DNA of 64,000 nucleotides from Limnochordia bacterium (GTDB lineage: Bacteria; Bacillota; Limnochordia; Darwinibacteriales; DTU012): assembly GCA_007116145.1 (NCBI GenBank), contig SKJB01000004.1, positions 22,847 to 86,846 of the forward strand. The letters run 5' to 3'. Position numbers and translations under genes: made by a program. The number at the start of each line of letters is the position of its first letter. Within the stretch, counting starts at the first letter, position 1. Shown piece by piece: positions 1,281 through 10,286 of the stretch. The notes under the pieces are model-generated. The model was not told the DNA's origin, did not search any database, and saw only the letters and a list, made by a program, of their open reading frames with translations.

Positions 1281-1540
1281 ATCTCCTTACCTCAAATTAC
1301 TTTCTACATCCCACCTATGCAAACATCAACTAAGCGGAAGTGCTCCCTAAGAACCTTTCCTTTCCATTCGATGCTTTGTATCTATTCTATAACTAGAAGC
1401 AGCTAAGGTCAATCATCTCTAGAGATGATATTGCCAATTAGTAATAAACAGTAACACCTTGCAGGGAATATCATGTAGGAGGCGAATTAAATACAACAAA
1501 ATTGATACACGCATCTATGAGTTTGGGGGTGCAATATGAC

Positions 1541-2920
1541 ATGATCAAACACTGGACGTTTGTCTATATGTTAGGAACTCATTTTGCCTGGATTCTATCC
1601 TTACCTTTATGGGGTCCTATCCTGAGTTATACAGCAGAGAACAGCAATGGGTTCGACCCTTACCCATTTGGATTTTGGTTTATTACTGCCTCCACTATAT
1701 CGTTTGTAGTCATACCCTTCATCCAGAGAATCAGCACGATTGTAAAATGTACCCGTTTATGTGGATTGACTCTTGTCCTCACAAATATCCTGTATTTCTT
1801 CCTCCCCCTTAGCACTTGGGTCGTTGCACCGATTGTTGCAGGATATTGTTCAGCTGCTCTGATATCCTCGTGGTTTATTCGCTTATCTACTCATGTTAGA
1901 TCCGAAGAAAGAGGGTTCGTGGTTGCTGGATCGATAGTTTTGGCGAATGTAATCCTCTACATGCTTACCCTCTTGTTACCGTTTCTGAACTCGACTGTTT
2001 TATTTGCACTTCTCGTCCTACTTACTACTAGTACGTTGTTATTCTTGCCAAGCTGTGAAGACATTAGCTACCAAAATCAAACACAAAACAAGCATACAAA
2101 ACCCGCCTTTTACTCAGCACTTCTGTTTATACTCTTATTTTATTGGGCTAGTGGATCGATAGTAGATATCGTCTATGCTGCCTTAGCAGAATATACAACT
2201 TCATTCCAAAATTACAGCGTGTTGGTATATATATTGGTAGTAATTTTCTTGAGTAAAACCACAAATATTGCCAAGCCGCTACCATTTGTTGGCAGCACCG
2301 TACTAATGGGGATAAGCCTTATGAGTTATCTTATGGCAACAAACAATGGGATCAGTCTAGTCGTTTCCTCGATTATCGCCATGAGTGCATTTGGTATTAT
2401 GGATCTCTATCTCTGGTCGTATCTCGTCCAACAAGATCGTCCAGTGCGGCAAGCTCTAGGTCTATTCAACCTAGGATTAGCTACTAACCTCGCGGCGATA
2501 TTTGGATCTACGTACCTAGGCGGGTTGTTTTCACGCACAGGTTCTTTGGGAGTGGAAACAGGTAGCGCTTTACTTTTTTTCTCCCTAATTCCGCTATTTT
2601 ACTTTGTTCATCTATCATTAAAAGAACCCAACCTAAGCAGTCCTAATCCAATACAAGCTCAAGATCAATTATCCACTGATGCTAGCGAACACTTAAATAC
2701 ACTATTTGTGAACTTAACACCAAGAGAAACTGACGTTTTAAAGCTGGTCATAGCTGGTTATTCGAATCAACAAATTGTCGATGACCTACAAATAACTATG
2801 GCTACTACAAGAACCCACTTACGCAACATCTATCGTAAAACAGGATTTCCTAACCGCAGTAAACTCCTTGCATCGGTAGTCCAAAATACGCTAGACAGCT
2901 ATGAAACAACCAGACAATGA
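1541..2920 (+). CDS. Membrane-anchored LuxR-family regulator: about 12 TM (MFS-like) segments plus C-terminal LuxR HTH
   Basis: C-terminus LTPRETDVLKLVIAGYSNQQIVDDLQITMATTRTHLRNIYRKTGFPNRSKL is a LuxR HTH; the rest is hydrophobic. Start moved from 1502 to the ATG at 1541, which is preceded by GGGGGTG. Confidence 0.85.
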   Translation: MIKHWTFVYMLGTHFAWILSLPLWGPILSYTAENSNGFDPYPFGFWFITASTISFVVIPFIQRISTIVKCTRLCGLTLVLTNILYFFLPLSTWVVAPIVAGYCSAALISSWFIRLSTHVRSEERGFVVAGSIVLANVILYMLTLLLPFLNSTVLFALLVLLTTSTLLFLPSCEDISYQNQTQNKHTKPAFYSALLFILLFYWASGSIVDIVYAALAEYTTSFQNYSVLVYILVVIFLSKTTNIAKPLPFVGSTVLMGISLMSYLMATNNGISLVVSSIIAMSAFGIMDLYLWSYLVQQDRPVRQALGLFNLGLATNLAAIFGSTYLGGLFSRTGSLGVETGSALLFFSLIPLFYFVHLSLKEPNLSSPNPIQAQDQLSTDASEHLNTLFVNLTPRETDVLKLVIAGYSNQQIVDDLQITMATTRTHLRNIYRKTGFPNRSKLLASVVQNTLDSYETTRQ

Positions 2921-2942
2921 AACCCTGTCCGGTTGTTTCATA
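2900..2942 (+). terminator. Intrinsic terminator-like hairpin overlapping the stop codon of the LuxR gene
   Basis: tatgaaacaaccagaca / tgtccggttgtttcata arms (17 bp, one mismatch/wobble). Confidence 0.7.
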
Positions 2943-2955
2943 ATAATCTACTGGG

Positions 2956-5775
2956 TTAGAAGGCATTGCTTAAACCCATAGAGAGACGATTTGTATCGTG
3001 TCGTTTATTCCACGCATACTTAACTTCAACAGGTCCAAATGGGGATAAGTAGCGCAACCCAACACCCATACTCATTAAAGGATCGAAAAATTTCACTACT
3101 TGATCACTTTCCCACACCTCTCCTCCGTCTATAGAGACAAATAGCGATATATCTCCTTTGAGATAGTGGCGTAACTCAGCACCAGCAACTACATATTTTG
3201 TGCCAACAATACCTGGAGGATAAGCTGCGAATGTAGTGGGACCTCCTAACTTAAACTGATATTGAAACGGTGTCTCTTTCGCTTGAATGCCACCAGCCCC
3301 TCGAAGCGACATAGCGATAAAAGAACTTATACCCAAACTAAATTCGGTTTGACCCGCTAAGTATCCATGAGAGTTTAACATACCAACGACAATCTGACCA
3401 GACCACAATGAATTAGTCCGTAAAGGGTTATGGGGCGGTCTATACCCTTTAAATCGTAGGTAAAGATCACGATTGCTTTGACTCTCTAAACCTAATGATG
3501 TTGCTGAAAAAACATGATTTACCTCATCATTCCCATAGCGGATCCCTGCTTGCACCGTACTGTATGGTGTGAGATAGGTGGTGCTGTCAAAGCTAACAAA
3601 AGATTGATTGACTTGATACGTACTACCACTATGAGTCCCCCACGAGACTGCTGTTTTATCGACTTGAGTCCCTACAGATATTTGGTTTTTTACAGGAAAA
3701 CCCATATTTGCAGCACCGTCAAACGATAGGATCCGTTGTTTTGATGGGCCAAATCCAAACTTTCCATGAATATTTGCTAGAGCTCCTCCAATGTTATGAT
3801 AACTAATACTGATACAGCCTGCTAGCAAATGGCTAATGATCCTATTGGCAAACATCTGGTTATTCAGGATTATCGGGTGGCCTTCCTGCATCATAATCAC
3901 TAAACGCAAAGAATCATCATCCATCAATCTAGGCTCTACAACGATACTGCGATGTGATCCTAGAAGATTCAATCTCTTCTCTAGTAACCACAACTGGTCA
4001 GCCGAGAATGGTTGACCCGCTTTTACCCCAATAACAGCATCAACCACCTGCAAATCCGTTCGATATGCACCATAGATGTCTACACCTGCGATCTCGATCC
4101 CATCATACATCGCATACTGGTTAAAATCATGCTTGCCCCTGATTTGCTGCCAAGGAGGTGCCGACATATCTACAATGAAGTCCATAACCATGGCAGTAAG
4201 GGAGTACGCTTGCCGAGAACTAACAGACAAAGAAACCTCATTTTTTTCAATCAGTTCCAAAGTCGATCGCAAAATCCGATCATAAGGGAGATGTGGAGCT
4301 TTACTATCTAAAACCCCTTGGTCTAACGCCTTTAGATAGGCTACATACTCACTAGGATCTGGCTCCACGTAAAGATCGGGTTTAGTTTGATACTCTTCAT
4401 TAATCGTTCCATCAGGGTTTAAACCTAACATTTGCGGTATCCGAACGACTAATTTACTGTGGGGTAAGCAAAAATATATTGGATCAAGTCCAATCCCGTC
4501 TCCGCCAGTGCGTGTTCCCACTAAGGTAGCCCAATTTGTGGCTTTTGCGAAAGAAGCGAAGGCTTCAGCTGATGAATACACACGATCATCAACTAACAAA
4601 AACACCTTCCCTGTAAAACCTATACTATGAGTAGGACTTACTATCACTGGCAATTTGATCGGATTAATAAACATTTCACTCAACAATTCCGATGCAGCAC
4701 CCACTCGATTGTCCACTACATAGCGCTCAACTTGCAACAGATGATAACCTAATCCTAACCGTGCTTGTAAAAACCTCTGTCCATAATTACCAGATCGAAT
4801 CGTTGTATAGTAATTGTAAGCCATAGGCTCTAGAATTAAAGGTCCCATTAGTAACTGCGACCAATAGTCTATTGTCCCTCCACCATTGCCGCGAATATCC
4901 ATAATCACATATGGATAGTGATGCACGCTGCGCAAAAAATCTAGTACCGGCTCGGAATCAGCTACTAGATGGTCGTAACCAAAAGAGCGTACCCGTAAAT
5001 AGGCTACCCTATTATCCTCAAGTATAATACCCTTAAAATTTGGTTGATCAGTCGCCATGCTAGGTTTGCTCTCACTCACCCAAGATTGGATTTGACTTGT
5101 TCGCTCCACTCCATCATGCCTAAAGCGTACTATTATTTTCTCTTCATTAGGTAGCGGTAAATTGAATGTGTACAGTCGATCTCTTAACCTATCTAGTTGG
5201 ATAACCTGTGAATGTTGTCTGCGTTGCACATATTCGTGGACATCCATACCATCAATCGCTACTAGCTGAACTCCAAGTGGCAAATGCTCTTGAATACTTT
5301 CATCTACAGCCACTACCCAGTACTCTCCTGCAATGTAGCGAGCATAGAAGCTTGGATGCTGCTGATTGCTCGTAACAATTTCTTGCCAGCGGGCATTCAT
5401 GGCAACTACTTCCTGCGAAAAAATAGAAGCCCAGAGCGAATCCGTCACAATCCCCTGTTGCACTACAGCGCTTGGACGTACAATATTAGCATGTGAGTTT
5501 TCTAGTCGGCTGACTATATACTGCAAACTCTGGTAAAACGCGTAGTCTGTTTTACTCTCCTGCACTAACTGCATAAATTCATCCTTTTGCTTTAACCAGT
5601 TATCTCCAGTTATCCGTTCCTTAACTGCGAGGTAGGGATAGTTTTCAGCAACAGTTTGATACAACCATTGGAAATCTTCTAACTTCTGTTGTGGTGTTAC
5701 GATGGCACTCTCAACGACTCCTTCCGAAGCCATGAGCGCTAGTAACAACACGAGAGAAAGCACACATCTTTTCAT
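2956..5775 (-). CDS. Secreted S41-family peptidase fused to a POTRA-like segment and an Omp85/BamA-like outer-membrane beta-barrel
   Basis: N-terminal signal peptide; S41 core MDIRGNGGG...VYSSAEAFASFAKATNWATLVGTRTGGDG; POTRA-like VDAVIGVKAGQPFSADQLWLLEKRLNLLGSHRSIVVEP...LRLVIMMQEG; C-terminus FKLGGPTTFAAYPPGIVGTKYVVAGAELRHYL...MGVGLRYLSPFGPVEVKYAWNKRHDTNRLSMGLSNAF, Omp85-type with terminal Phe. Confidence 0.85.
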   Translation of the reverse strand: MKRCVLSLVLLLALMASEGVVESAIVTPQQKLEDFQWLYQTVAENYPYLAVKERITGDNWLKQKDEFMQLVQESKTDYAFYQSLQYIVSRLENSHANIVRPSAVVQQGIVTDSLWASIFSQEVVAMNARWQEIVTSNQQHPSFYARYIAGEYWVVAVDESIQEHLPLGVQLVAIDGMDVHEYVQRRQHSQVIQLDRLRDRLYTFNLPLPNEEKIIVRFRHDGVERTSQIQSWVSESKPSMATDQPNFKGIILEDNRVAYLRVRSFGYDHLVADSEPVLDFLRSVHHYPYVIMDIRGNGGGTIDYWSQLLMGPLILEPMAYNYYTTIRSGNYGQRFLQARLGLGYHLLQVERYVVDNRVGAASELLSEMFINPIKLPVIVSPTHSIGFTGKVFLLVDDRVYSSAEAFASFAKATNWATLVGTRTGGDGIGLDPIYFCLPHSKLVVRIPQMLGLNPDGTINEEYQTKPDLYVEPDPSEYVAYLKALDQGVLDSKAPHLPYDRILRSTLELIEKNEVSLSVSSRQAYSLTAMVMDFIVDMSAPPWQQIRGKHDFNQYAMYDGIEIAGVDIYGAYRTDLQVVDAVIGVKAGQPFSADQLWLLEKRLNLLGSHRSIVVEPRLMDDDSLRLVIMMQEGHPIILNNQMFANRIISHLLAGCISISYHNIGGALANIHGKFGFGPSKQRILSFDGAANMGFPVKNQISVGTQVDKTAVSWGTHSGSTYQVNQSFVSFDSTTYLTPYSTVQAGIRYGNDEVNHVFSATSLGLESQSNRDLYLRFKGYRPPHNPLRTNSLWSGQIVVGMLNSHGYLAGQTEFSLGISSFIAMSLRGAGGIQAKETPFQYQFKLGGPTTFAAYPPGIVGTKYVVAGAELRHYLKGDISLFVSIDGGEVWESDQVVKFFDPLMSMGVGLRYLSPFGPVEVKYAWNKRHDTNRLSMGLSNAF

Positions 5776-5926
5776 GGTACACCCCCGAGAATTTACCTAC
5801 TTATATGTTTATTACCCATTCGATTTTCAGAATACTATATCCTTCCTACTAAGGATAATAAATCAGGCTATACCTCGGTGTAGCTAGCATTAGGCTTCTT
5901 GGCAGAAGGGTGGCCAAGAATACTTA

Positions 5927-6460
5927 CTAACCTTGTAGCTGAGCCTTTTCAATCATTGTTTTATGTTCATCATCAGAGACAAAGTACTCTACCGTATAAG
6001 CAATGAAAAGAATAACTGGTAGATTGAGCAGCCAACGAAAAACAGCAAAGCGCAGTCCTAGCGCAGTTGACTCAAATAAAAACATTGGTATTTTTAGGGT
6101 AGCCCAAGAGGATAAAAATATTACTATATTCGCTAGACGCACACCTTTAATTAGCATTACGGCTGCAAAGGGAAACGCTCCATATAGCGGCCCCGCTGAG
6201 CTAGCACCAAGGATGATGCTGAGCAAAATCCCTTTAAACCCTGATTCTCGTCCCATATACTTGATAACTACATTGCGAGGAACCCATTGATCCAATAACC
6301 CCAATAAAATAAAGATAGGTGGCAAAACAGCTAGCATCTGTGAAAAGTTAAAGACGGTATTGCGCATAAGCGGTTCCTGTAATTCCGGTTTAAAAATTGC
6401 GACTCCCGCACTCAAGCCTAGAAAAATAAGAAACATGCGATAACGAACAACTAATTTCAT
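5927..6460 (-). CDS. Predicted permease half-protein (UPF0718/YraQ-like)
   Basis: Several TM segments; KYMGRESGFKGILLSIILGASSAGPLYGAFPFAAVMLIKG motif; ATGA overlap with the upstream ORF. Confidence 0.7.
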   Translation of the reverse strand: MKLVVRYRMFLIFLGLSAGVAIFKPELQEPLMRNTVFNFSQMLAVLPPIFILLGLLDQWVPRNVVIKYMGRESGFKGILLSIILGASSAGPLYGAFPFAAVMLIKGVRLANIVIFLSSWATLKIPMFLFESTALGLRFAVFRWLLNLPVILFIAYTVEYFVSDDEHKTMIEKAQLQG

Positions 6461-6933
6461 ACTAGCACCCCCAACAGATACGCGATGCCAAAAGCTAGAA
6501 TAAAGCTTAATCCATTACGTATCAACGTTTGCTTCACACCAAAGTAACGAATTTCTAACGGTGCAGTGATAACTCCAACCATCATGAGAGTTGACACGAA
6601 TACTGCGACTTGCTCTATCCCTGCACCAAGTTGTAGCAAAGAATCGGCTAATGGAAATGCTACAAACCCTGGAATTAGCGTCACTGCCCCGACGACTCCA
6701 GTAAAGAGCATACCAAAAAAACCAGTATCTTGACCAATGAACCGAGAAATTACCTGTGGAGATAACAGGGTAATCGCCAACCCTACCAATACCAGTACTG
6801 CAGTGAAATCTGGTAGCACTTTCTCTAACGACTTCCACGCCTTCACTAACGCTTGTTTGGTGCGTTCCTTGTCTTTTAAAAAGGAAAAGCTTAAAAAAAT
6901 AACTGCTAATCCATATAACGAATACGTAAACAT
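6457..6933 (-). CDS. Predicted permease half-protein (UPF0718/YraQ-like), partner of the 5927-6460 ORF
   Basis: TM segments; RFIGQDTGFFGMLFTGVVGAVTLIPGFVAFPLADSLLQLGA parallels the motif in the partner ORF. ATG at 6933 has the better SD (GAAAGGTGG). Confidence 0.7.
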   Translation of the reverse strand: MFTYSLYGLAVIFLSFSFLKDKERTKQALVKAWKSLEKVLPDFTAVLVLVGLAITLLSPQVISRFIGQDTGFFGMLFTGVVGAVTLIPGFVAFPLADSLLQLGAGIEQVAVFVSTLMMVGVITAPLEIRYFGVKQTLIRNGLSFILAFGIAYLLGVLV

Positions 6934-6950
6934 GATATCGCCCACCTTTC

Positions 6951-9164: not shown

Positions 9165-10286
9165 TTAACGAATCCGCAGACTCACATTACCATATTCTGC
9201 ATCTAGACGAACAAGGTGTACACCTTGATTGTGTGTGGCCAAATAGCGATCCCGTGAATTTGAAATTGTTTCCTTAACCATGGTTACATTTGAGTTTACA
9301 CTTGCTCTCTCTGCATCCACCATTAGGTTGTAGCCATCCGTTGAATCCTGCAACTCAATATCAACTGTAGTGTGACGGCTGCGTATCGTTAGCTCATTAC
9401 TCACGTTTGCTAACCGAAGTGATCCAAACCGAGCATTAAGATCCATATTGCCCGCTACTCTATTCGTGTGCAAATTACTATGGGAGAAGTCACCTTGAAT
9501 CGTTCCACCAATATCCCGTAGATCTATGTGATCATGACTAGCCTGCAAATTAACTTCACCGCTGATATCATCTAAATGGACTCGCGAGTGACGAGAGTTT
9601 AATCGAAGATCACCAGCCACTTCCTCCACAGTTAACTGAGAATGCGCTGTGTCAAGTTGAAGAGTTCCATTAACTCCACGAATATCACCAGAGCTGTGGT
9701 TGATGCTTAGACGCACATTGTTGTTAATCGCTTTAATCGTAAGACCCGTAAGATGATTTAACGTTCCTTCTAAACCAGAAGCAAGATTTTCTATGTGAAC
9801 GAATCCATGGCTAGCAGTAAGCGACACGAATAAATCCTGGGGTAGGTGAATAACAAAATCTGTCTGCACACCACGTATCATTGACGTTGATCGGGGTATA
9901 TTTTCCATGCTAAGAGACAGGTGCTCCTGGTTTATCTGGTGATCCAATTCTAACTTAGCTAAGTGCTCTAAAGCTAATTGTTCCGTATTTGCATAGACCG
10001 TAACTACTGTGGCAATTTCAATATCCAGATTATCGTACCCGACTATTTTTACGTCCCCATAGTGGTTGAGCAGAATTAACCCCTTCAAGTTTTCCGATGA
10101 TACACTAACCCGTTCTTCCAGCGAAGCACTGGGGTATTCAGCCAGTACAGATTGGTTCATGGAAGGGTTAAACGATGAACTCGTATTGCTGAAACGAACA
10201 TTGCCCCCTCTATTATAAATCACATTACTAAAGGCAATAGCTGATAGGATTAGCAAAATACCAATAAATATTTGCTGTCGATTCAT
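9165..10286 (-). CDS. DUF4097-like beta-solenoid putative adhesin, exported or anchored
   Basis: N-terminal TM/signal; repeating beta pattern (HSSGDIRGVNGTLQLDTAHSQLTVEEVAGDLRLNSRHSRVHLDDISGEVNLQASHDHIDLRDIGGTIQGDFSHSNL). Confidence 0.8.
   Translation of the reverse strand: MNRQQIFIGILLILSAIAFSNVIYNRGGNVRFSNTSSSFNPSMNQSVLAEYPSASLEERVSVSSENLKGLILLNHYGDVKIVGYDNLDIEIATVVTVYANTEQLALEHLAKLELDHQINQEHLSLSMENIPRSTSMIRGVQTDFVIHLPQDLFVSLTASHGFVHIENLASGLEGTLNHLTGLTIKAINNNVRLSINHSSGDIRGVNGTLQLDTAHSQLTVEEVAGDLRLNSRHSRVHLDDISGEVNLQASHDHIDLRDIGGTIQGDFSHSNLHTNRVAGNMDLNARFGSLRLANVSNELTIRSRHTTVDIELQDSTDGYNLMVDAERASVNSNVTMVKETISNSRDRYLATHNQGVHLVRLDAEYGNVSLRIR

Follow-up and report, generated by a model that had tools for sequence, protein, structure and literature searches.

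A predicted S41 protease joined to a POTRA domain and an Omp85-type barrel in one open reading frame of a Limnochordia bacterium

The roles known for Omp85 proteins are mostly those of insertase and translocase, and PlpD raised the idea that an Omp85 barrel can be the scaffold of a periplasmic enzyme. The window (the whole stretch of 64,000 nucleotides analysed here, from a Limnochordia bacterium) contains, at 2956-5775 on the minus strand, an intact open reading frame with an ATG start, which a preliminary description read as an S41 protease passenger, a POTRA-like segment and an Omp85 barrel arranged as in PlpD. The question that this locus raises is what such a barrel does for the protease: whether it secretes it, holds it, or keeps an Omp85 activity of its own. 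Sequence and models cover the domains, their order, the conservation of residues and the outer-membrane gene set of the host, and from these we consider it fairly probable that the protein is a Sec-exported S41 serine protease which its Omp85-type barrel and POTRA domain tether to the outer membrane, facing the periplasm.

The AlphaFold2 model of the full protein, made from a 27-sequence alignment (mean pLDDT 83.3, pTM 0.79), shows the S41 module, the helical linker, a beta-alpha-alpha-beta-beta order at 561-630 and long strands at 654-935. Together with the Pfam matches it bears out the order of passenger, POTRA and Omp85 barrel that had been read from the sequence, and the signal peptide is likewise supported (Table 1). 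The motifs quoted in that reading fall at 292-300 (MDIRGNGGG), 399-404 (VYSSAE), 423-427 (TGGDG) and 914-922 (GPVEVKYAW).

Table 1. Parts of the S41-Omp85 gene, with positions in the window
Feature	Residues	Position	Strand	Basis
Whole gene, S41 peptidase - POTRA - Omp85 barrel protein	939 aa	2956..5775	-	ORF, Pfam, AlphaFold
Likely ribosome-binding site, Shine-Dalgarno-like GGGGG run (5782-5786) upstream of ATG		5781..5787	-	Read directly
Predicted Sec signal peptide, MKRCVLSLVLLLALMASEGVVESA	1-24	5704..5775	-	Sequence; hydrophobic N-terminus in fused relatives
S41 peptidase module	28-470	4366..5694	-	Pfam E=2.2e-20; Foldseek 4ghn
Pfam S41 core, inside S41 module	256-470	4366-5010	-	PF03572
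Beta-rich PDZ-like segment within S41 module	143-230	5086..5349	-	Predicted secondary structure
His95, putative catalytic His	95	5491..5493	-	Invariant in 27-sequence alignment
Ser401, putative nucleophile (VYS401SAE)	401	4573..4575	-	Invariant in 27-sequence alignment and all 51 rows
Glu460, putative third triad member	460	4396..4398	-	Invariant in 27-sequence alignment
Helical linker between protease and POTRA	474-557	4105..4356	-	AlphaFold secondary structure, partly low confidence
Single POTRA domain	561-632	3880..4095	-	Model fold order; Pfam POTRA in relatives
Omp85-type transmembrane barrel, Phe last	654-939	2959..3816	-	Pfam, Foldseek, hhalign
Degenerate loop-6 lid-lock site LGGPTTFAAY	843-852	3220..3249	-	Motif comparison; canonical LGG..(V/L)RGY

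The protease half is the best defined part of the protein. Its Peptidase_S41 match (73.3 bits) runs over the whole profile, positions 1-165, and a Foldseek search of the PDB with the full model returned 4ghn (E=1.5e-18, target TM 0.74), with CPAF and CtpA among the S41 matches. An S41 core had been placed at residues 245-475; the S41 domain is there, while its extent was drawn too small, as the conserved module spans about 28-470 and His95 lies outside the Pfam match. The PDZ-like segment may be a PDZ domain, judging from its modelled structure; a search of the window protein for the PDZ profile gave no Pfam match. In a wider set of 51 rows Ser401 is present in all and His95 in every row covering that position; at Glu460 a few distant rows show another residue or are misaligned. 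The position of the Lys of the CtpA dyad coincides with the TGGDG motif in the window protein, and a putative Ser-His-Glu triad was therefore assigned by analogy with CPAF- and tricorn-type enzymes. The window protease is thus predicted to use a Ser401/His95/Glu460 triad of the CPAF/tricorn-like branch and not to belong to the Ser-Lys branch of CtpA. The NCBIfam CPAF profile gives a sub-cutoff match to the window protein, and CPAF, tricorn and IRBP-like S41 peptidases (4ghn, 3dor) share with it the fold and an apparent Ser-His-Glu arrangement but carry no barrel. A separate CtpA-like S41 protein (406-aa frame) is also encoded in the host genome.

The C-terminal half was identified as POTRA and barrel by several routes. 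When S41, POTRA and Omp85 profiles were compared with the window protein, S41 and Omp85 passed the Pfam cutoffs (PF01103: E=2.8e-13, 50.5 bits against a cutoff of 24, residues 690-939, profile 67-325) while the POTRA match stayed below threshold in the window protein itself (PF07244, E=0.056, residues 561-621). Relatives pass the POTRA cutoff at the same place of the alignment (L048, 4e-6; L049, 4e-5; L189, 4.5e-4), and with the fold order of the model this upholds the POTRA-like segment first noticed by eye. Alignment of the barrel to BamA barrels with hhalign gave 2.2e-7. A separate model of the POTRA-barrel half (pLDDT 72.5) matched TamA 8us1 in Foldseek (E=1.7e-16, query TM 0.69), and the full model also recovers TamA and BamA, with TamA as the best barrel match. 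The Omp85 features claimed for the C-terminus were confirmed by the Pfam match and by a barrel predicted after residue 640. DSSP counts 15 barrel strands in both models where 16 would be expected, and places loop 6 behind strand ten and not strand eleven. BamA and TamA resemble the window protein in barrel fold and POTRA, from which it differs in its single POTRA, the loss of lid-lock motifs and its large enzymatic N-terminus.

Whole-length relatives, for which a BLASTP-type comparison had been proposed, were found as fused single-ORF proteins across several families. The same architecture occurs at eight loci (L044-L050 and L060): four are in MAGs labelled Clostridiales or Limnochordia (L044, L046, L050, L060), and the others are in UBA4881 (L048), Bacillota SL1-B34.1 (L049), Thermotogae (L045) and Petrotoga sp. 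(L047, broken off by a contig end). Beyond these eight there are a full copy, L145/L189, and a partial one, L149, in further genomes. The fused loci in genome contigs were found by an alignment-based scan; a single-sequence scan of these contigs with the window protein gave no matches. Among 61 related genomes, four besides the host encode a full-length S41 fusion in a single ORF of 902-943 aa, and these correspond to L044, L046, L050 and L060; G152 carries a copy of 825 aa and G084 a partial copy. The fusion model matched at E<=1e-20 in 16 of the 73 genomes of the window's class, five of which have S41 fusions; in the others it is the POTRA-barrel half that gives the match. In the unrooted protease tree ten fused rows lie on one side of a branch with 86/95 support (one change), and this grouping was found in 82% of bootstrap trees, which is consistent with one fusion event. 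The L045 and L047 copies are on near-identical, syntenic MAG contigs and are present in only 2 of the 21 genomes of their family; recent transfer or misbinning is therefore possible for these Thermotogae/Petrotoga-like copies. Two matches were obtained in viral contigs, neither with a POTRA-barrel gene beside it; the stronger, L122, is an S41 protein that is not fused. A PHROGs search gave no match.

The distribution of fused and unfused copies bears directly on the role of the barrel. Stand-alone orthologs occur in Clostridia (Caloramator, Clostridium and Thermoanaerobacter among them), Bathyarchaeota and Asgard archaea; they are about 30% identical to the window protein over residues 26-510, and the putative triad is kept in fused and unfused copies alike. 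Unlike the window protein, they are mostly about 500-570 aa long, begin with a hydrophobic segment and end after the S41 module, before the POTRA. The surroundings of the unfused S41 loci contained no POTRA-barrel gene, and a split S41 and barrel gene pair was rejected on this ground. Of 8 genomes with a fused copy, 7 have a separate Omp85 gene elsewhere, and the exception, with no such match, is that of L045; among 31 genomes whose copy is unfused just 1 has such a gene, a member of Halanaerobiales (Fisher p=4e-6, counting genomes regardless of relatedness and with a p that is affected by MAG incompleteness). The fusion thus appears to track the outer membrane, and as it is found in outer-membrane relatives and the enzyme alone elsewhere, the barrel looks like an anchor. 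Limnochordia are counted among the diderm or Gram-negative Bacillota (PMC11448272), and in the host genome a single cluster contains the genes for BamA, TamB, LptA/LptD-N and LptF/G, similar to the BamA-TamB gene arrangement reported for diderm Firmicutes (PMC5007114). Adjoining TamB in the host cluster is a gene with a SpoIVB-type S55 peptidase match (L190:13473-15275, G000:C49).

The lid-lock motifs of Omp85 proteins are conserved and are not used in defining the superfamily. The loop-6 motif is (V/I)RG(Y/F) and that of strand 13 is (F/G)xDxG; both have been described as essential (PMC7644211). In the window barrel the loop-6 site has no RG(Y/F) and strand 13 keeps DxG alone (SIDGGEVW, 881-888), a loss of the loop-6 motif that was scored against local BamAs and not against PlpD. 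RG(Y/F) is missing in all 11 S41 fusions examined, those of Thermotogae reading FKGY, a conservative change, at this site, whereas all 13 intact BamAs of the window's class carry both motifs. Loss of RG(Y/F) does not alone prove loss of translocation.

The same POTRA-barrel half is also found with a second enzyme. Along its length it aligns (hhalign 6e-46, 385 columns) with the C-terminal half of proteins, each about 1000 aa long, that have an AAT-type Ntn-hydrolase and TPRs at their N-termini. One AAT-TPR-POTRA-Omp85 fusion of 1011 aa is encoded in the host genome (L037:1918-4950, G000:C55), as is a second copy broken by a contig end (L038:1-1608, G000:C153), and more are present in G079, G051 and G184. 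One family has five genomes in which the AAT-TPR and POTRA-barrel parts are separate adjacent genes (L188:109-1881 and 1895-3127; also L164-L168, with just the end of the AAT gene contained in the L168 stretch), and the AAT enzyme and barrel are therefore functionally linked independent of fusion. Judged by these alignments, different enzymes can be mounted on the POTRA-barrel half, which serves as a reusable chassis. Of the split barrels beside an AAT gene, four of five keep RGF; among the AAT fusions, L021 and L022, the most Omp85-like, keep LRGY and the others examined do not (AAT_L020 was broken off by a contig end in this comparison). It looks like the lid-lock was lost stepwise after fusion, an order of events that we infer. 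In BLAST, AAT barrels match the window protein to its C-terminus and S41 siblings only to residue 685, a pattern which raised the possibility that AAT fusions were the source of the window barrel; the POTRA-barrel tree does not decide for or against this, the AU test giving no rejection (p=0.39) of a topology in which the S41 barrels form one group.

Several other explanations of this protein have to be weighed. It is very improbable that neighbouring genes were joined by chance or in assembly or that the gene is decayed: one relative, in G197, is interrupted by stops, but independent assemblies of several families carry the same uninterrupted architecture with the catalytic residues conserved, and such independent single-ORF copies speak against both chance and an assembly artefact, the alternative that the preliminary description had kept in reserve. 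Autosecretion of the type Vd kind, in which the POTRA-barrel would pass the S41 domain to the surface to be retained or clipped off, seems unlikely to us. Its appeal lies in the domain order, which is that of PlpD, in the adjacent AAT and barrel genes of the five genomes, which resemble two-partner secretion pairs, and in the RGF motif of four of the five split barrels. However, PlpD, for which secretion of the passenger was first proposed, has been shown to retain the patatin domain in the periplasm and apparently has no lateral gate, and type Vb passengers are beta-helices secreted unfolded (PMC11116518), whereas S41 is a globular alpha/beta enzyme; the loop-6 motif is also mostly lost in the fused barrels. 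Of the PlpD-type secretion reading, the order of passenger, POTRA and barrel therefore stands and secretion is not supported, and release of the protease is the less likely alternative because the PlpD passenger is periplasmic and the loop-6 motif is lost.

That the barrel retains an Omp85 activity in outer-membrane protein assembly or lipid handling, with the S41 domain as a quality-control protease acting on its clients, is in our estimate distinctly unlikely. The POTRA is kept in relatives and DxG in the window barrel, and an analogous idea, periplasmic quality control, is suggested for protease-annotated 'Metallo' Omp85s by Heinz and Lithgow (2014, PMC4104836). Against it, the loop-6 motif is gone, a canonical BamA is encoded in the genome, and the barrels of fused orthologs diverge strongly (17-23% identity) while the protease is conserved. 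With the lid-lock gone and the PlpD passenger periplasmic, an anchored protease facing the periplasm is therefore favoured. For such a protein, the BamA of the cell would insert the barrel into the outer membrane, where its main role would be that of an anchor rather than of an insertase or secretion pore. The protease would remain in the periplasm beneath the outer membrane and, as a natural guess, cleave periplasmic or outer-membrane-associated proteins. The unfused orthologs of one-membrane Clostridia and archaea seem, from their sequences, to carry an N-terminal membrane anchor, which the barrel would replace in two-membrane cells.

Among known systems the closest in layout are PlpD and other patatin-like Omp85 proteins (type Vd, including FplA of Fusobacterium), which likewise have a signal peptide, an N-terminal serine hydrolase, a linker, one POTRA and an Omp85 barrel in one chain; the passenger of PlpD is a patatin lipase and that of the window protein an S41 protease. 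PF00149, a calcineurin-like phosphoesterase family, has no Pfam match in the window protein. This is the domain of the 'Metallo' Omp85 subfamily, which in the available part of the survey by Heinz and Lithgow (2014, PMC4104836) combines an Omp85 barrel with an enzyme domain annotated as protease and is listed among non-POTRA architectures, unlike the window protein with its S41 domain and POTRA. That part of the survey gives ten Omp85 subfamilies, including those with patatin, WD40 and 'Metallo' N-termini, and does not name S41 or AAT N-termini among them. In the literature searched, which was of partial coverage, no description of an S41-Omp85 fusion was found, in agreement with the preliminary description, which was aware of none, and an S41 passenger on a PlpD-like architecture is apparently undescribed; one paper that mentions both S41 and Omp85 is, judging by title and abstract, a proteomics study. 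The S41- and AAT-Omp85 family adds to PlpD independent cases with a different enzyme, in which a motif described as essential is lost by degrees. The chances seem to us about even that a diderm Bacillota branch of Omp85 had a BamA-like POTRA-barrel partner, once a separate gene beside that of an enzyme, that became a fused anchor with interchangeable AAT and S41 enzymes and lost the lid-lock and classical Omp85 activity, the protease anchor switching between a helix in monoderms and Omp85 in diderms. The mode of anchoring the enzyme would then be linked to the one- or two-membrane divide in Bacillota, and since nature provides the protein in split, fused and barrel-less form, scaffold and secretion can be tested by comparison.

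No conserved neighbour gene was noticed among the loci inspected. In the window, the S41-Omp85 gene is preceded on its own strand by two overlapping half-size ArsP_1-like permease genes (5927-6945, minus strand), 151 bp away, with no terminator-like site found in between. On its other side the gene adjoins one for a 472-aa protein (1502-2920, plus strand) with a LuxR-type HTH at its C-terminus and an MFS-like membrane region that Pfam matches weakly. Further along, at 9165-10286 on the minus strand, is a gene for a 373-aa protein whose sole match is to NCBIfam LiaX, below the cutoff (E=2.7e-5).
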